6,597 bases of DNA from contig JAJZGE010000102.1 in the NCBI GenBank assembly GCA_021798675.1, forward strand, positions 1 through 6,597, written 5' to 3'. The notes beneath the pieces were generated by a model. It saw only the letters and a program-made list of their open reading frames with translations, made no database searches and was not told the DNA's origin. The translations under genes and the position numbers were made by a program. The stretch comes from Pseudomonadota bacterium. Lineage in GTDB: Bacteria; Pseudomonadota; Gammaproteobacteria; Xanthomonadales; Rhodanobacteraceae. This document shows positions 1 to 6,597 of the stretch, piece after piece; position 1 is the first letter of the stretch, and each line of letters starts with the position of its first letter.

Positions 1-575
1 CCGCCGGTCGCGAGCACCACCGCGGCGGCCTCGATCAGCTGCTGCCGCCCCCGTGCGTCGCGCACGCGCACGCCGGCGACACGGCCACCGCGCAGCAGTA
101 GCGCCTCCGCATCCACCCCGCCACGCCACTGCACGTGCGGAGCGGCTTGCACCTTCGCGCGCAGCGCGCGCATCAGAGCCGCACCACTGGCGTCGCCGCC
201 CGCGTGCACGATGCGGGAGACACCGTGACCGCCCTCGCGCCCGAGTTGCAGGCCGCCGTCGGGCCTGCGGTCGAACGCCACGCCCAGCGCGTCCAGCCAG
301 GCCACCGTGGCCGGTGCCGCTTCGCACAGCCAGCGCACGGCGGACGCATCGTTGTGACGGGCACCCGCTTCCAGCGTGTCGCGCACATGCGCCTCGACAC
401 CATCGCCCTCCCCCAGCGCAGCCGCGATGCCGCCCTGGGCCAGCGCACTGGCGCTGCCGGTGCCGTCGGCACTACGGCAGAGCAGGCGTACCGGTGCGGG
501 CGCTGCGGCCAGTGCCGTGGCCATGCCGGCGACGCCGCTACCGACCACCACGATGGGCAGGCGGGGATGCCTCAC
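1..575 (-). CDS. nadB: L-aspartate oxidase NadB, N-terminal third (partial, runs off the window)
   Basis: Cytoplasmic FAD enzyme that oxidises L-aspartate to iminoaspartate, the first step of de novo NAD synthesis; its product is used by NadA. The visible 191 codons read without a stop. They show the Rossmann FAD loop GSGVAG (residues 12-17), the family block ALAQGGI (44-50), DTLEAG (66-71), GREGGH (112-117), RIVHAGGDASG (121-131), and an ATGG at the window edge. Full-length NadB is about 500-540 residues, so roughly two thirds is missing. The start is GTG at 575-573: it lies just before the FAD loop, no ATG precedes that loop, and it overlaps the nadA TGA as GTGA, implying translational coupling. 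There is no clear Shine-Dalgarno sequence. NadB can pass electrons to oxygen or to fumarate (known for the family), which suits a cluster with an oxygen-sensing regulator. The family call is firm; the exact start is slightly less so. Confidence 0.93.
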   Translation of the reverse strand, partial: MRHPRLPIVVVGSGVAGMATALAAAPAPVRLLCRSADGTGSASALAQGGIAAALGEGDGVEAHVRDTLEAGARHNDASAVRWLCEAAPATVAWLDALGVAFDRRPDGGLQLGREGGHGVSRIVHAGGDASGAALMRALRAKVQAAPHVQWRGGVDAEALLLRGGRVAGVRVRDARGRQQLIEAAAVVLATG

Positions 576-1638: not shown

Positions 1639-2478
1639 TCAGCGCTGCCGATGCGCTTCGCGTGCGGCACGGGCGAAGCGGGCACCGCGGTTCAACGCGA
1701 TGCGCAAGCCCAGCGGCACCGACTCCCACGGCAGGCGATCCAGCAGGTTGCGCGCGGTGAGGCCAAGCTCGGTGTCGCCGGTGAGCACCAGGCTGCGCTG
1801 GAAGAACAGGGTGTCGGCGTCTTCCAGCCGGCTGGCGAGCAGCAGCAGGTCGGTGGCGCTGCCGCGCACGCTGGCCTCGGGCTGCCCGTCGATCGCCACC
1901 AGGCGCCCGTCGTGCAGGGTCAGCACCCAGTGCAGGCCAAGGTCGCTCACCTCGATGCCGAGCCGGCGTCCGGCCATGAAATCCAGCGCGCCATCGGCGA
2001 TCGGCGCGGCGAGCACGCGCGCCATCGCGCGTTCCAGCACCGCCTGCTGCCAGCGTGCCGGGAATGCGCGCAACAGCGGTGCGATCCGTCGTGGCGGCGG
2101 CAGCAGGCGCAGCAACGTTGCAGCGCGGGGGGAGTCGTCGAGTGGGTGCATGCCGTCGAGCATGGCAGCAGTCGTGCCCTGCCCGCCTTGACCGGCGTCA
2201 TCCCGCAGGCCTTGCTGTACGCATGCATCGGTGATCACCAGGTCGAACAGTCGCGCCGCGGTGCCGGCGGGGAGGTCGAGCCGTCGCGCCAGTCGTTGCC
2301 CACGCTGGCGCACCATGGACTCGCGTGCGGGATCGCGTGCCGGTACACCAGCGCGCGGCTTGAGCTGCGCCACCATCCGCACCAGGCGCCGGCGTGCCGC
2401 CAGCAACAGCAGCATGCCGTCGTCCACCGCATCGATGGCGGTGCGGGTGCGCGCCAGCGCAAAACGCTCAGCACGCAT
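1639..2478 (-). CDS. ubiT: Chorismate mutase (AroQ) - UbiT/SCP2-like fusion protein
   Basis: A 279-residue two-domain cytoplasmic protein. Residues about 6-90 form an AroQ-type (all-helical) chorismate mutase domain. Aligned by eye with the E. coli PheA mutase domain, R12, R29, K40, D49, R52, E53 and Q89 match the active-site R11, R28, K39, D48, R51, E52 and Q88; S84 is replaced by Ala85. Residues about 91-120 are a Gly/Gln/Asp-rich linker. Residues about 120-279 resemble UbiT (YhbT), the SCP2-like accessory factor of oxygen-independent ubiquinone synthesis, with DTLFFQRSLVLTGDTELGL at 222-240 nearly as in E. coli UbiT. AroQ domains convert chorismate to prephenate, but the isochorismate pyruvate-lyase PchB shares this fold, so the reaction is not certain. 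ATG at 2478 is chosen over the in-frame GTG at 2487 because the strong Shine-Dalgarno sequence sits 8 bases before the ATG but abuts the GTG. It overlaps the DGC gene by 11 bases. No ubiU or ubiV is in the window. Confidence 0.88.
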   Translation of the reverse strand: MRAERFALARTRTAIDAVDDGMLLLLAARRRLVRMVAQLKPRAGVPARDPARESMVRQRGQRLARRLDLPAGTAARLFDLVITDACVQQGLRDDAGQGGQGTTAAMLDGMHPLDDSPRAATLLRLLPPPRRIAPLLRAFPARWQQAVLERAMARVLAAPIADGALDFMAGRRLGIEVSDLGLHWVLTLHDGRLVAIDGQPEASVRGSATDLLLLASRLEDADTLFFQRSLVLTGDTELGLTARNLLDRLPWESVPLGLRIALNRGARFARAAREAHRQR

Positions 2479-2857
2479 CGTCGGCACCCTCCCCTTGCAG
2501 GGCCCGGGCTGCGGGAAGCACGTGTTCCCGATACAGATGCCGCGCCTCGACGGGATCGAAATCGGCGTGCCTGCGCTTTTTCACGCCGTGATCGGAGAGC
2601 ACCAGGTGGATATCGGCCGTCACGCCTGCCCTGGCGAGACAGGCCGCGACGCATTTCAGCATGCAGCCATCCAGCGCAAGGATGCGCCGCCCGCCCTGCG
2701 CGGTGCGCACCAGGCCGGCCACCCCGCCGCCCACGCCGGCAATGCAGGACATCTCGGCGGCACCGGCGCGGTCCAGTTGCAAGGCGAGATGGTTGGCCAT
2801 CTGCGCCGCGCTGGAGCAGCCGGAGCAGGAATACGCCAGGGGCAAGTCGTGGCTCAT
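2468..2857 (-). CDS. DGC-domain putative metal-binding protein
   Basis: A 129-residue soluble protein that fits the DGC family (Pfam DGC, named for a conserved Asp-Gly-Cys), often labelled putative zinc-binding; its biochemical role is not established. Seen: CSGCS near the N terminus (C11, C14), C38 next to a glycine-rich stretch (IAGVGGG, 39-45), the signature DGCMLKC (63-69) with C65 and C69, C73, and a C-terminal C129. A basic VKKRR follows at 92-96. The paired cysteines suggest a metal or thiol site (inference). ATG 2857-2855 has GAGGA 7 bases upstream, and the frame upstream of it is unlike the family. The gene follows the membrane-protein stop by 10 bases and overlaps the fusion gene by 11, so it is within the operon. 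Position beside nnrS, DUF2249 and UbiT-type genes suggests a role in anaerobic or nitrogen-oxide metabolism, but this is context only. Confidence 0.85.
   Translation of the reverse strand: MSHDLPLAYSCSGCSSAAQMANHLALQLDRAGAAEMSCIAGVGGGVAGLVRTAQGGRRILALDGCMLKCVAACLARAGVTADIHLVLSDHGVKKRRHADFDPVEARHLYREHVLPAARALQGEGADDAC
2487..2496 (-). promoter_or_regulatory. Strong ribosome binding site of the chorismate mutase-UbiT gene
   Basis: On the minus strand the bases read AAGGGGAGGG and end 8 bases before ATG 2478-2476. The in-frame GTG at 2487-2485 shares its first base with this motif and so has no room for it; the site therefore decides the start. It lies inside the end of the DGC gene, as expected for coupled translation. 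Confidence 0.7.
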
Positions 2858-2864
2858 CGGTACA

Positions 2865-2869
2865 TCCTC
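2865..2869 (-). promoter_or_regulatory. Ribosome binding site of the DGC-domain gene
   Basis: GAGGA on the minus strand, 7 bases before ATG 2857-2855. It shares bases with the TGA stop (2868-2870) of the upstream membrane-protein gene, a typical coupled-operon arrangement. It supports the short 129-residue start over the longer open frame reaching 3010. Confidence 0.65.
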
Positions 2870-4112
2870 AAGCGGGTTGTTCGACGCGGCGGGCAAAACC
2901 ACGCGCACTGCGCAACGCGCTCCACAACGCGTGGCCGTGCACGCCCCAGGCGCCCAGCTGTCCGAGACCCGCCCATCGGGCCAGCCATGGCTGTGGCCAA
3001 AGCACCGCAAGCACCAGCCATGGCGCGGCCAACGCCTGCACCATCAGCACGCGCTGTCTGGCCGTGTGCGGCAACAGGCGCTGCACGCCGGGAATCTGCA
3101 TGCCCCGCGGCAGCCGGCGGCGCAAGCCCACCCAGGCGATGAACGGCACGATCTCCATCGCCATCGCGCCCACCAGCAGCGGCAGACCAACGCCCAACGC
3201 GAGCGCTCCGGCAAGCAGGCCACCACCGCCGAGCAGCGCCACGGCAGCCAGCAGCATCGCCAGCAAGCCGATGCGCCAGTGCCGGAACAGCGCGCTGCGG
3301 CGCGCCGTCGGCACCGGCCACTGCAGCCACAACCCGGCCAGCGCGAACACGGCGGCACCCACGGCCACCAGCGCCGGCAGCAGGACATCCAAGCCATGCG
3401 ACAGGTGCCATGCCGCCGCTGCGGGCAAGGCCAGCGCTACGCTGCCCAACCATGCCGCCTGCGCACGCGCCGGCACGCTGCCGGTGGCCTGGAACATCGG
3501 CATGACGAGTCGTCCGACCGCGGCCAGCAGCAACAGCATCCAGCCCAGCACGCCGAAGGCCGCGTGCACGTCAACCACGGCCAACGGCCACGGCCCGGCG
3601 CCGGCAAGCCGCAGGGCCATTCCGCCCCCGACCAGTGCCGTCGCCACGCCATAGCCGAGCGCGATGCCGATGCCGGCCCGCATCAGGCGTTCGCCAGCCG
3701 CGCCGAGCAGGCCCGGCAGTGTCATCACGGCCAGCCACACGAAGGCCAGCGGCAACACCATGCCCGCCGCCAACAGCGGGCCGCGCAGGCCGCCGTGCAG
3801 GCCGGCGACGAGCAACAGCACGCCGAGGTTGAACAGCGCATGCAGCCATGGCGCACTGCGCTGCCAGCGGACCTCCGCCCCCACCGCCACCGGCAGGAAC
3901 TGCAGCAGGCTGCCGAACATCGCGTTGCCCAATACGCCCAGCGTCCACACGTGCACCAGGGCCAGGGTGGCCGGATGCCAACGCGAATAAAAAGGCAGGT
4001 CGCCGTCCATGCACAGCATCAGGCCGCCGGCCATGCCCCAGCACGGCGTGGTCAGCAGGAAGCGCAACGGCAGCGCCGCCGCGGGAGACCCTTCAAGCCT
4101 GAGCTTCGGCAT
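2868..4112 (-). CDS. Polytopic inner-membrane protein, NnrS / heme-copper oxidase subunit I-like, function unknown
   Basis: A 414-residue very hydrophobic protein with about 11-12 predicted membrane spans by eye, no signal peptide and a short basic N terminus. I do not recognise an established gene name. Two His-containing helices stand out: LVHVWTLGVLGNAMFG (H54 in residues 52-67, followed by LLQFLPVAVG) and VHAAFGVLGW (H183), followed by GRLVMPMF (200-207). These resemble, in style only, the helix histidines of NnrS and heme-copper oxidase subunit I proteins, so heme or copper binding is possible but unproven. H235 and H239 (WHLSHG) and H348, H392, H394 are further candidates. The ATG at 4112 lies 20 bases inside the end of the DUF2249 gene with no strong Shine-Dalgarno sequence, suggesting coupling. 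Starting later would cut into the first span. The stop lies 10 bases before the DGC gene. The neighbours suggest a role in anaerobic or NO-related respiration. The reading frame is certain; the function is not. Confidence 0.85.
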   Translation of the reverse strand: MPKLRLEGSPAAALPLRFLLTTPCWGMAGGLMLCMDGDLPFYSRWHPATLALVHVWTLGVLGNAMFGSLLQFLPVAVGAEVRWQRSAPWLHALFNLGVLLLVAGLHGGLRGPLLAAGMVLPLAFVWLAVMTLPGLLGAAGERLMRAGIGIALGYGVATALVGGGMALRLAGAGPWPLAVVDVHAAFGVLGWMLLLLAAVGRLVMPMFQATGSVPARAQAAWLGSVALALPAAAAWHLSHGLDVLLPALVAVGAAVFALAGLWLQWPVPTARRSALFRHWRIGLLAMLLAAVALLGGGGLLAGALALGVGLPLLVGAMAMEIVPFIAWVGLRRRLPRGMQIPGVQRLLPHTARQRVLMVQALAAPWLVLAVLWPQPWLARWAGLGQLGAWGVHGHALWSALRSARGFARRVEQPA

Positions 4113-4335
4113 CGCCGGGGTACCGGATCACCACGCGCACGCTGCCGTCGGCCTGCGGAGCCTGCGGCTCCGCATCGAAGCCGAGGTGGGCCAGCTCGGT
4201 CAGCAACGGTCGCGGAAAGCGCGGCGCCACGATGACCAGTGTCTCGTTCGGTGCCAGCCGGCTGGCGGCGTCGAGCGCCCGCATCATCGGCTGGGGCGCC
4301 TCCAGGTGGCGCAGGTCGAGTTCGTCGGAAGCCAT
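4093..4335 (-). CDS. DUF2249 domain protein
   Basis: A small soluble protein of 80 residues that is essentially one DUF2249 domain (TusA/SirA-like fold family, biochemical role unclear). Seen: the N-terminal signature ELDLRHLEAPQPM (residues 5-17), NETLVIVAPRFPRPLL (30-45), LGFDAEPQ (51-58) and a closing strand RVVIRYPG (67-74). Members are common next to denitrification and NO-response genes. ATG 4335-4333 is chosen because it sits immediately before the family start. The in-frame GTG at 4377 would add 14 Cys/Trp/Arg-rich residues and lies inside the FNR-type box. No clear Shine-Dalgarno sequence precedes the ATG; if the FNR box acts at -41.5, transcription would start almost at this ATG, giving a very short or absent leader. 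The gene overlaps the membrane-protein gene by 20 bases and appears to be the first gene of a long operon. Confidence 0.85.
   Translation of the reverse strand: MASDELDLRHLEAPQPMMRALDAASRLAPNETLVIVAPRFPRPLLTELAHLGFDAEPQAPQADGSVRVVIRYPGDAEAQA
4154..4174. repeat. Perfect 9-bp inverted repeat (hairpin) inside the DUF2249 gene
   Basis: The arms TGCGGAGCC (4154-4162) and GGCTCCGCA (4166-4174) are exact reverse complements separated by 3 bases. In the transcript this gives a GC-rich 9-bp stem with a triloop, over the codons for the Glu-Pro-Gln-Ala-Pro-Gln-Ala stretch. There is no U-run after it, so it is not an intrinsic terminator. It may be a by-product of the near-tandem CCGCAGGC repeat in this segment. 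Confidence 0.5.
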
Positions 4336-4370
4336 GCCGGCATTGAAGCACCGGCACCACCGTGCGGGCG

Positions 4371-4384
4371 CTGACACAGGTCAA
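4371..4384 (-). promoter_or_regulatory. FNR/ANR/DNR-type operator upstream of the DUF2249 operon
   Basis: The minus strand reads TTGAC-CTGT-GTCAG, a two-half-site 14-bp element matching the FNR-family consensus TTGAT-N4-ATCAA at 7 of 10 defined positions, with a perfect TTGA half-site core. It is 12 bases after the nnrS stop and centred about 42 bases upstream of the DUF2249 ATG. A TTCAAT at 4342-4347 (4 of 6 to TATAAT) lies where a -10 element would sit for an activator centred near -41.5. The regulator gene in this window has the DNA-contact residues that fit such a site. Activation by FNR or a DNR paralogue is inferred. Confidence 0.6.
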
Positions 4385-4395
4385 GCGGCATCACA

Positions 4396-5643
4396 TCAGC
4401 CCGGCTTGCCATCCTTGCGCGGCGTGAGATAGATCCACGCCGAGCGCAACACCCAGGGCAGGAATGCCAGCAACCACCCGCTGCCGGCGACCACCAGCCA
4501 CAGGTAGCGGTCGCCGCCGAACTCGGCGCGGATGCGCAGGAGCGCCACCGTCTGCAGCAGCACGAAGCACAGCCACGGCACCGGATGCATTTGCAGCAGC
4601 CGGCCGGAGTGGCCATGGGTGACCCGGGTCACCATCGCCACCAGCATCGAACCGAAGAACCCGATCGCCAGCGCGTGCAGCGGCGCCAGTCCGAGCACGT
4701 GTTCGCCGCTCACGGCGAGCGCGAGGTCCTGCACTGCGAACAGTACGAAGGCGACCGGCAACCAGGCAAAGGCGATATGCAGCACGGCGAGCAGGCCCGG
4801 CCGCAGGCAGCGCCAGGGCTTCCACATCAACGCATGCAAACCGAACAGCACGGCGAGCGGCAAGTCGCAGGCCCACAGCCAGCGCGACAACCCGGCCCCG
4901 TCCAGCAGCAGGTGCGCCAGAAGCAGCACCCACGCCAGCGGCAGGCTCCACGCCGGTCGCCACATGGCGTAGCCGGGCACCACGTTCTTGCTGAAGAACG
5001 GCAACATGCGGTGGCAGACGGTGAAGTACATCGGCAACAGGAAGCCGAACGTGCCCAGCTTGATCGCCAGCCGGTCCAGCGCCGACGGAAGTCCGGGATC
5101 GAACAGCCGCAAAACGAAAATCGCCAGGCCCAACGTACCCAGGTAGAACGCGGCGAGGCATGACCAGCCGTGCCTGTTGCGATCGGCCGACCGGGCCAGC
5201 ACGTCGGTCAGCGTACCCACGCCAAACAGGTAAGCCGCCAGCATCAGGCACAGGCCGACCCTGAGCAGGACCGGCATGTCCAACAGCCCCAACGTGCCCA
5301 GCACGTACCCGCCCAGCACGCCGCCGGCCACCGGCAGGTAGCGCCCGGGAGGAACCGGTGGACCGTCCATCCAGCGCGGGAACGTGGTCATCAGGAAGCC
5401 GAACATGAAGAGCGGAAACAGGCCGTACTGGATCAGCACGGCGTGTGCCCACCCTGCCGGCACGGTGGGCTGCGGCCAGCGGGTCCAGCCGAAGCGCAGC
5501 GAGGCCAACTCCAACGTCCACCAGGCCATGCTCAGCAGCACCGCCACGGTGCCAGCGAGGAATAGCGGTCGATGCGGCGCCGAGGCAAGGAGCGCGACGG
5601 GATCGGCGGAGACGGAGGAAGTCGATGGATCCATGGGCGGCAT
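4396..5643 (-). CDS. nnrS: NnrS family heme-copper membrane protein
   Basis: Integral membrane protein of 415 residues with about 12 predicted spans. NnrS proteins are reported as heme- and copper-containing and protect against nitrosative stress; they are commonly found in denitrifiers under FNR/DNR/NNR control. Seen (numbering from ATG 5643): HAVLIQYGLFPLFMFGF (67-83) leading into TTFPRWM (86-92), CHRMLPFFS (210-218), and the family hallmark HALAIGFFGSMLVAMVTRV (323-341) followed by THGHSGR (342-348). These carry the conserved histidines likely to bind metal or heme. The usual length is about 390-420. In-frame start choices are GTG 5655, ATG 5643 and ATG 5634. ATG 5643 is preferred because GTGAG lies 7 bases upstream and because the operator at 5689-5702 would place transcription start near 5654. 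It is transcribed in the same direction as the fnr-like gene and probably has its own promoter. Confidence 0.93.
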   Translation of the reverse strand: MPPMDPSTSSVSADPVALLASAPHRPLFLAGTVAVLLSMAWWTLELASLRFGWTRWPQPTVPAGWAHAVLIQYGLFPLFMFGFLMTTFPRWMDGPPVPPGRYLPVAGGVLGGYVLGTLGLLDMPVLLRVGLCLMLAAYLFGVGTLTDVLARSADRNRHGWSCLAAFYLGTLGLAIFVLRLFDPGLPSALDRLAIKLGTFGFLLPMYFTVCHRMLPFFSKNVVPGYAMWRPAWSLPLAWVLLLAHLLLDGAGLSRWLWACDLPLAVLFGLHALMWKPWRCLRPGLLAVLHIAFAWLPVAFVLFAVQDLALAVSGEHVLGLAPLHALAIGFFGSMLVAMVTRVTHGHSGRLLQMHPVPWLCFVLLQTVALLRIRAEFGGDRYLWLVVAGSGWLLAFLPWVLRSAWIYLTPRKDGKPG

Positions 5644-5688
5644 GCAGTTGCTCACGGCCCATGGTGGCAGGCCGGTAGTGCGGCGGCC

Positions 5689-5702
5689 CTGACCTGGATC
5701 AG
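5689..5702 (-). promoter_or_regulatory. FNR/ANR/DNR-type operator upstream of nnrS
   Basis: The minus strand reads CTGAT-CCAG-GTCAG, a near-perfect inverted repeat matching TTGAT-N4-ATCAA at 7 of 10 defined positions. It lies in the 72-base gap between the regulator stop and the nnrS start. CACCAT at 5661-5666 sits about 29.5 bases downstream of its centre, the expected place for a -10 element at a class II FNR promoter, although only 3 of 6 bases match TATAAT. It predicts a transcription start near 5654. Confidence 0.6.
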
Positions 5703-5715
5703 CCGGGACTTCCGC

Positions 5716-6489
5716 CTATTTCAGCAGCAGGCTGGCGCCGACCTCGCGCAGGTCGTGCTGCTTGAGCAGCACCAGTTCGCGCCCTTCGATCGCGATCAGG
5801 CCCTGGCTGCGGAACCGCCCCAGTACGCGGCTTACCGTCTCCGAGGCGAGCCGCAGGTAGTTCGCAATGTCGCCGCGCGACATGCTGAGGTGGAAGCGCG
5901 TGGCGGAGAGGCCGCGCATCGCGAAACGCGTGGACAGGTCGATCAGGAAAGCCGCCATGCGCTCGTCCGCGCTGTGATCGCCGGCCAGCAGCGACGCGGC
6001 ACCGAGTTCCTTGCTGATCAACCGGAAGAGATGCTGTTGCATCGCCGGCTGGCGCGCCGCCAGCGCACTCATTGCGGGAAACGAGAAGCGGCAGAACTGC
6101 GTGTCCTCCAGCGCTACCGCATCGCAGGGGAAGTACTCGGGGTAGATGGCGTTGAGCCCGATCACCTCGCCCGGCAGGTAGAAACCCATCACCTGCTCGT
6201 TGCCCTCGCGGTCGAACAGCCGCGTCTTCACCGAGCCGCTGCGCACGGCGTAGATCGCCCGGAACGGATCGCCGGTGCGGAACACGTGCTCGCCGGTGCG
6301 GAACGGCCCCACGTGTTCGACCAGGCAATGCAGCTCGAGCAGCTCCTGCTTGCCATAACCCTGTGCTTGGCAGGCCGAGGAGAACGCGCAACTCGAACAG
6401 AACCGGGTGGCATCGCCATCGTCGGCGATGGGTTGGACGACCGGATGCGGCTGTCCTGACGAGTGGCTGGTTGCCATGGCGTCTCGCAT
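5716..6489 (-). CDS. fnr: FNR/ANR-type oxygen-sensing Crp-family regulator
   Basis: Cytoplasmic transcription factor of 257 residues in the Crp/Fnr family. The N terminus holds CSSCAFSSAC (C31, C34, C40), with the spacing of E. coli FNR C20, C23, C29. C133 (DTQFCRF) lies 93 residues after C40, exactly as C122 follows C29 in FNR. All four [4Fe-4S] ligands are therefore present, making it an oxygen sensor rather than a cluster-less DNR-type NO sensor. The cyclic-nucleotide-binding-like beta roll spans about 55-145, the dimer helix about 145-170, and the HTH about 200-226. The recognition helix SETVSR carries E217, S220 and R221, equivalent to FNR E209, S212, R213, which read TTGA half-sites. 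Extra cysteines C55 and C122 are present. Start: ATG 6489 gives this length; ATG 6477 (four residues shorter, weak GAG 5 bases upstream) is equally possible. Stop is TAG at 5716-5718. It likely controls the two operators in this window. Whether it is named fnr or anr depends on the host lineage. Confidence 0.93.
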   Translation of the reverse strand: MRDAMATSHSSGQPHPVVQPIADDGDATRFCSSCAFSSACQAQGYGKQELLELHCLVEHVGPFRTGEHVFRTGDPFRAIYAVRSGSVKTRLFDREGNEQVMGFYLPGEVIGLNAIYPEYFPCDAVALEDTQFCRFSFPAMSALAARQPAMQQHLFRLISKELGAASLLAGDHSADERMAAFLIDLSTRFAMRGLSATRFHLSMSRGDIANYLRLASETVSRVLGRFRSQGLIAIEGRELVLLKQHDLREVGASLLLK

Positions 6490-6520
6490 TGCGGGAATTG
6501 GCTATGCCGCGGATGGCTGC

Positions 6521-6526
6521 ATGATA
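6521..6526 (-). promoter_or_regulatory. Candidate -10 element of the fnr-like gene
   Basis: TATCAT on the minus strand, 5 of 6 to TATAAT, 31 bases upstream of ATG 6489. No good -35 hexamer is seen 16-18 bases further upstream, and no FNR-type box is seen in 6490-6597, so there is no sign of autoregulation by such a site within the window. Confidence 0.35.
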
Positions 6527-6597
6527 CGCAAGCAGCTCCGCCGCCGCGAATCTCCGTGGCAGCGCGCCGCAGGAAGATCGCCCTGCTGCTCGGCGAC

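Follow-up and report, generated by a model that had tools for sequence, protein, structure and literature searches.

UbiT is known from the work of others as a lipid-binding accessory factor, UbiU and UbiV are members of the U32 family, and the product of chorismate mutase (CM) is prephenate. In Escherichia coli, UbiT (YhbT) of the O2-independent ubiquinone pathway is a protein of 174 residues made up mostly of an SCP2 domain, according to excerpts of its description (PMC6747719), and the initial annotation of the DNA studied here was right to call it a stand-alone protein. Two U32 relatives, TrhP and RlhA, are given as prephenate-dependent in part of a published account (PMC6599085); excerpts of a 2023 study on E. 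coli raise prephenate as a possible oxygen donor for ubiquinone (PMC10470549), and a section of a 2024 review states, citing a PNAS paper of 2024, that the hydroxyl group stems from prephenate, adding that catalysis of the reaction by U32 enzymes still awaits direct proof (PMC11574389). The idea that prephenate serves as an organic oxygen donor is recent, and how it would be delivered to UbiU-UbiV calls for an explanation. Here we describe CM-UbiT, a fusion that naturally connects the making of the donor with the hydroxylation machinery: it is probably a UbiT with its own chorismate mutase, making prephenate for the UbiU-UbiV hydroxylations. The initial annotation had tied a chorismate-consuming domain to the anaerobic ubiquinone pathway, which our analysis supports, and had overlooked the direct link, namely that the CM product prephenate is the oxygen donor reported, in the excerpts cited, for the anaerobic ubiquinone hydroxylations.

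The gene lies on the minus strand of the window, by which we mean the whole stretch of DNA analysed (6,597 nucleotides, contig JAJZGE010000102.1, Rhodanobacteraceae):

1639-2478, minus strand: CM-UbiT fusion gene of 279 aa from the ATG, or of 282 aa from a GTG at 2487 (1639-2487)
2212-2460, minus strand: AroQ-type chorismate mutase domain, residues 10-92 of 282, with CM_2 match, 1ecm fold and catalytic residues
2134-2199, minus strand: flexible linker, residues 97-118, pLDDT <50
1651-2124, minus strand: UbiT (SCP2) domain, residues 122-279, with NF047962 match and UbiJ-SCP2 fold
2487-2496, minus strand: ribosome-binding-site-like stretch AAGGGGAGGG, 9-18 bases 5' of the fusion ATG

Inspection of the open reading frames in the window shows a single uninterrupted frame of 279-282 residues on the minus strand that spans both the CM and the UbiT part. 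In 282-residue numbering, Pfam CM_2 (PF01817) matches residues 15-89 with 54.1 bits (cut-off 27) and Pfam SCP2 residues 157-250 with 54.6 bits (cut-off 21.3), and the NCBIfam equivalog model for UbiT, NF047962, matches residues 140-255 with 129.2 bits (curated cut-off 46.9). None of the named NCBIfam chorismate mutase equivalogs scored over its cut-off for the query, the best being PRK09239 with 45.2 bits against 120. The AlphaFold model of CM-UbiT (mean pLDDT 81.6, pTM 0.54) comprises three AroQ helices, at residues 2-46, 53-69 and 74-91, and a C-terminal part that is SCP2-like. In Foldseek searches with this predicted model, UbiJ-SCP2 (PDB 6h6p) was the top match, and E. coli chorismate mutase 1ecm superposes at an rmsd of 1.0-1.1 Å over 83 alignment columns. 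The linker region (residues 93-120) has a mean column entropy of 2.63 bits in the alignment of fused proteins. These matches confirm the identities that the initial annotation had given to both domains; its coordinates are also correct, and so are the seven residues it had named, R12, R29, K40, D49, R52, E53 and Q89, which are R15, R32, K43, D52, R55, E56 and Q92 in 282-residue numbering.

CM and UbiT share one frame at 79 of 80 similar loci (the best 80 of 354, on named contigs, picked by likeness to the fusion, two of them sitting on one chromosome). According to precomputed Pfam matches, 119 of 120 listed relatives (of 1284) carry CM_2 and SCP2, the remaining one, of 245 aa, having SCP2 alone; the listed homologues are 245-306 aa long, many of them 279-290. 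The fusion is present across many assemblies, isolates among them, and is therefore no assembly artefact; an assembly join, against which the one open frame had already been held, is ruled out. The CM-UbiT fusion is genuine. At the exceptional locus, in the complete genome of Luteimonas granuli (L071), CM and UbiT occupy two frames that overlap, owing to a frameshift or an error in sequencing. A fusion 58% identical to ours is also present in a record titled Erythrobacter (Alphaproteobacteria; L070), possibly on a misbinned contig.

Around the fusion, the window contains the following features:

1-575, minus strand: start of a nadB-like gene, identified by eye; continues on genome contig L266
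572-1597, minus strand: nadA-like gene, identified by eye, directly downstream of CM-UbiT
2468-2857, minus strand: DGC-domain gene, ATG near 2857 by eye; PF08859 at 109.9 bits for frame 2471-2878
2868-4112, minus strand: membrane protein of 414 aa between the DUF2249 and DGC genes, without Pfam or NCBIfam match, NnrS-like by eye
4093-4377, minus strand: DUF2249 gene, PF10006 at 46.1 bits, probable ATG near 4335 by eye
4371-4384, minus strand: FNR/DNR-type box TTGACCTGTGTCAG, one mismatch to TTGAYNNNNRTCAA, ahead of the DUF2249, DGC and CM-UbiT genes
4396-5655, minus strand: nnrS, PF05940 at 224.8 bits
5716-6489, minus strand: CRP/FNR-family regulator, best NCBIfam model Fnr NF008365 at 189.2 bits, below its cut-off of 228

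CM-UbiT is co-directional with nnrS, with the DUF2249, membrane-protein and DGC genes and with the nadA- and nadB-like genes, and the CRP/FNR-family regulator precedes; the DGC gene ends 11 bases inside CM-UbiT. The window holds two FNR-type box matches, against 0.09 expected, the second of which (2188-2201) lies within the fusion gene. At 77 of the 80 related loci, the 4 kb upstream of the fusion contain an FNR-type box, and over all 80 loci 147 boxes were counted in 305 kb upstream versus 63 in 290 kb downstream, where the count may contain ubiUV's own boxes. In Pseudomonadota, ubiT is often preceded by an FNR site (1001 of 1566, as given in a portion of PMC11707229). The genome contig C290 (L266) starts at window position 4516, and window positions 4517-6597 were not found on it.

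For comparison with E. coli CM, the 1ecm alignment was used, in which E. coli numbers equal query numbers minus 4; it prints one gap just before Q88, and the gapless register was adopted. Query residues R15, R32, K43, D52, R55, E56 and Q92 align with R11, R28, K39, D48, R51, E52 and Q88 of the E. coli enzyme, and with all seven present the domain looks catalytically able, as had been judged before. Among 92 fused proteins of <80% identity (from 211 distinct, 244 in all), R15, R32, K43, R55 and E56 are conserved to 100%, Q92 to 99% and D52 to 97%, and the seven positions, named beforehand, are all among the 11 of 83 CM positions that reach at least 96.5% (hypergeometric P 8e-8). Departures across the 211 distinct proteins amount to Asn for D52 in four, His for Q92 in one and otherwise gaps in three proteins. 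As the locus proteins of the 92-protein set were chosen by a CM profile, strongly decayed CM copies would be missed; the order-wide sample started from UbiT instead, and here all seven residues are kept in 41 of 42 fused genes, the exception (G015) having His for the Q88 equivalent. Mean column entropy is 1.64 bits in the CM part versus 1.09 in the better conserved UbiT part. The dN/dS ratios were 0.17-0.36 (CM) and 0.18-0.25 (UbiT) for three close pairs, with all-pair medians of 0.45 and 0.34, respectively, and CM values of at least 1 in 15 of 4133 pairs; as distant pairs are near saturation, dN/dS is given no weight.

U32 matches occur in each of the 42 fused genomes (37 with two, five with one), and wherever a U32 gene occurs in the fetched flanks (34 of 42 fusions), it lies downstream of the fusion and convergent to it (34 of 34). 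The fusion contig of the window's genome, C290, also encodes UbiU (528 bits against a cut-off of 440) and UbiV (351 against 275), which face the fusion from about 5 kb off; in genome G233, too, both score over cut-off on the same contig as the fusion. None of 45 genomes searched (42 fused, three not) has more than two U32 matches; in the two genomes examined by family model, the matches are to UbiU and UbiV, so that TrhP and RlhA are apparently missing. TrhP and RlhA were accordingly rejected as prephenate users, given at most two U32 matches per genome in the 45 and their assignment in the window's genome and G233. CmoA, of tRNA carboxymethylation, was rejected as well, with 0 of 22 genomes over its cut-off of 193.3 bits and 13 with matches of at most 46 bits. 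A ubiD-like gene lies directly 3' of ubiU/ubiV in G233 (L265, 10586-12058, minus strand), and at many of the 80 loci a self-built UbiD profile gives a match close to ubiT.

CM_2 was searched in the same 45 genomes, and 37 of the 42 fused ones have another CM_2 match in a PheA-sized frame. In G246, G233, G207 and G116, which are 99-100% complete, the fused CM_2 is the sole match, and these four also gave no match to prephenate dehydratase; gene absences here rest on a loose first-look search and on assemblies in many contigs. In six other genomes, the dehydratase search gave a single match spanning almost the full domain; in G160 the dehydratase is split over three frames and a partial CM_2 match exists besides the fused one. 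An AroH-type CM was found in none of 14 genomes, G246, G233, G207 and G116 included, and chorismate synthase in all 14. The fused CM keeps all seven catalytic residues in these four genomes and in G160. The TyrA domain PDH_N (cut-off 26.5 bits) has no match in G233 and scores 23.6 bits in G207, 22.5 in G116, 26.7 in G246 and 34.8 in G160; it is likewise without a match in G121 and G184, which have a whole dehydratase, and in G075, which has a PheA-sized CM frame, so a missing PDH_N match is common here. In the search for dehydratase, PDH_N, CmoA and U32, UbiU-UbiV are the only known prephenate users found in G246, G233, G207, G116 and G160.

Outside the order, 89 loci were inspected, taken from 91 UbiT-like matches (G299 and G410 were left out) and in some cases ending at contig ends. 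At five of them, with five family labels, a separate CM frame adjoins or overlaps ubiT, the gaps between stop-to-stop frames being 72, 57, 41, -6 and 15 bases (L173, L178, L198, L205 and L230). On the assumption of two CM genes per ~2900 genes, 0.12 such neighbours are expected (P 2e-7). Four of the five separate CMs were tested against Pfam CM_2 and gave 59.5-66.8 bits; four, from the first 40 loci, score 40-58 bits against a profile of the fused CMs, compared with 18-23 bits for six PheA frames. The separate CMs keep the equivalents of R11, R28, K39, R51 and E52, none keeps Q88 and only L205 keeps D48, which makes their activity less sure. A database search with one of them returned three near relatives, none with a name.

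The same domain order, which the initial annotation had proposed to seek in other genomes, recurs within the order. UbiT scores over the curated cut-off in 80 of 299 genomes, 42 of these loci having CM fused and 38 having no CM. Fused genes make up 18 of 21 in family f1, 19 of 19 in f2, one of one in f3 and four of four in f4 (42 of 45 in total), compared with none of 35 in f8, f9, f10 and f12 (14, 11, 8 and 2 genomes). No CM was found near stand-alone UbiT at the 38 loci within the DNA fetched. Three f1 genomes depart from the pattern: G184 has lost the CM part save for a short stretch resembling its end (by eye) and has no U32 match in its genome; G255 has a UbiT frame without the CM part and keeps two U32 genes; and G291, which has U32 genes, encodes UbiT and CM in separate frames ~35 kb apart. 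As G255 and G291 have U32 genes without a fused CM, the fusion is not needed. In G255 (L146, 6873-7811, minus strand), the start of a membrane gene, by eye like that at window positions 2868-4112, runs in frame into UbiT, as after a deletion. The separate parts of G291 include L258, 6799-7311, plus strand, and G012, of the same genus, has a CM-only frame (L259, 7049-8641, minus strand) in which the catalytic Lys is replaced by Arg, with no UbiT over cut-off.

Among 369 genomes of the class, no fusion was found outside the order; matches to both parts occurred only in G000, G001 and G013, all within it, and UbiT matches outside the order start at query residue 85 at the earliest. In G445, a CM-side match covering residues 11-166 lies in a 395-aa frame on a contig different from that of its UbiT. 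The fused proteins mostly cluster in a UbiT tree, with G024 among the stand-alone ones; in view of its placement, of many low supports and of the arbitrary rooting, we claim no number of fusion events.

A CM with this ordinary active site might serve phenylalanine and tyrosine synthesis in general and have been fused to UbiT by chance; any CM product may join the cell pool, and PDH_N over cut-off in G246 and G160 fits this reading too. Such a general role is improbable, however, given the second CM that most fused genomes already possess in a PheA-sized frame, the lack of dehydratase matches in the four genomes with no other CM (in G233 of PDH_N matches as well) and the CM genes that adjoin ubiT in five families outside the order. 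A shade less probable is a non-catalytic AroQ fold that dimerises or docks UbiT. E. coli CM is an intertwined dimer and the UbiT relative UbiJ acts within a multiprotein complex, as stated in excerpts of PMC12329711 and PMC6747719, respectively, but the seven catalytic positions form part of a small conserved core, whereas much of the domain is variable. Conserved binding residues would also be required of a chorismate sensor or gate, in which a ligand at the CM domain switches UbiT. This function, which had been suggested for the fusion, is allowed by the data, yet it leaves unexplained why the residues are kept where the fused CM is the sole CM found and why separate CM genes stand alongside ubiT elsewhere; we consider it very unlikely, below docking.

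Least probable of all is a lyase acting on chorismate or isochorismate to provide the benzoate ring, another suggestion of the initial annotation, for which we found no support. Its appeal lies in the isochorismate lyase PchB, which has the same fold and related chemistry, and in G041, a fused genome without a XanB2-type match. The positions that separate CM from isochorismate lyase are described in part of a 2025 study (PMC12329711). There, the query has D52, E56, D87 and A88, as against Ala51, Val55, Trp86 and Tyr87 in PchB, and the PchB-type signature (non-acidic residues at EcCM positions 48 and 52, a bulky aromatic pair at 83/84) is absent from it. Among NCBIfam models, neither that of isochorismate lyase (19.4 bits with the query) nor the best-scoring CM model (45.2 bits) reaches its cut-off. 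The query has no match to the UbiC or XanB2-type Pfam domains; an FkbO/Hyg5-type chorismatase domain, which we take to be the XanB2 family, is present elsewhere (G000:C225) and occurs in 44 of 45 genomes, among them that of the window, so that in most of them a CM making 4-hydroxybenzoate is not needed. Judged by its residues, the active site is of the CM type and not of the isochorismate-lyase type.

Since a CM makes prephenate and prephenate is the reported donor, the fusion most likely makes the donor where it is used. We propose that the CM domain would convert chorismate to prephenate, that the UbiT (SCP2) domain, which is thought to hold the prenylated ubiquinone intermediate, may present it to the UbiU-UbiV hydroxylases, and that these would take oxygen from the CM-made prephenate for the O2-independent ring hydroxylations. 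The fusion would thereby have prephenate made where it is consumed, separately from PheA of phenylalanine synthesis. Computation has provided the domain identities, the conserved CM site, the co-presence of U32 genes, the retention of the fusion where no PheA was found and the separate CMs touching ubiT; CM activity, prephenate use by UbiUV and any direct hand-over we infer. We lean slightly towards a dedicated supply, in which CM-UbiT would form a complex with UbiU-UbiV and pass prephenate on to them, and in which some bacteria, having lost the route from prephenate to phenylalanine, would retain the conversion of chorismate to prephenate solely for ubiquinone. G184, whose UbiT is without the CM part and whose genome is also without a U32 match, counts in favour of the proposal. 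Against it count the CM-less UbiT of E. coli and of all 35 genomes from f8, f9, f10 and f12, the better conservation of the UbiT part, the His at the Q88 equivalent in G015, and PDH_N over cut-off, hence possibly TyrA, in G246 and G160.

If the proposal is true, the repeated recruitment of CM to ubiT would mark CM as a pathway member that recurs and has so far gone unrecognised, and a CM gene beside ubiT is predicted to mark prephenate-dependent hydroxylation. The genomes without PheA are hosts in which a chorismate mutase can be probed for one role. Public annotation already names both domains of CM-UbiT. In the literature searched we found no functional description of the fusion, a point on which the initial annotation holds, and no treatment of UbiT and chorismate mutase together; the 2024 PNAS paper on prephenate, known to us through the review only, may mention the fusion.

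CM-UbiT resembles the described UbiT (YhbT) of the O2-independent pathway in scoring over the curated UbiT cut-off, in having ubiU and ubiV on its contig and in an SCP2 fold nearest to UbiJ-SCP2, and differs from the E. coli protein in the CM domain that precedes it. With PchB it has the AroQ fold in common; PchB is without equivalents of Asp48 and Glu52, whereas CM-UbiT has both. The AroQ CMs fused in PheA, TyrA and DAHP synthase contain the same domain, with the catalytic residues of the E. coli PheA type, but their partners belong to aromatic amino-acid synthesis, whereas the partner in CM-UbiT is a ubiquinone accessory factor. The ubiT-ubiU fusion of Zymomonas mobilis (Pelosi et al. 2019, PMC6747719) is the only other ubiT fusion in the excerpts of the UbiTUV literature examined, and there ubiT is likewise joined to a part of the anaerobic hydroxylation; in Zymomonas the partner is a hydroxylase, whereas in CM-UbiT it would be the enzyme that makes the oxygen donor.
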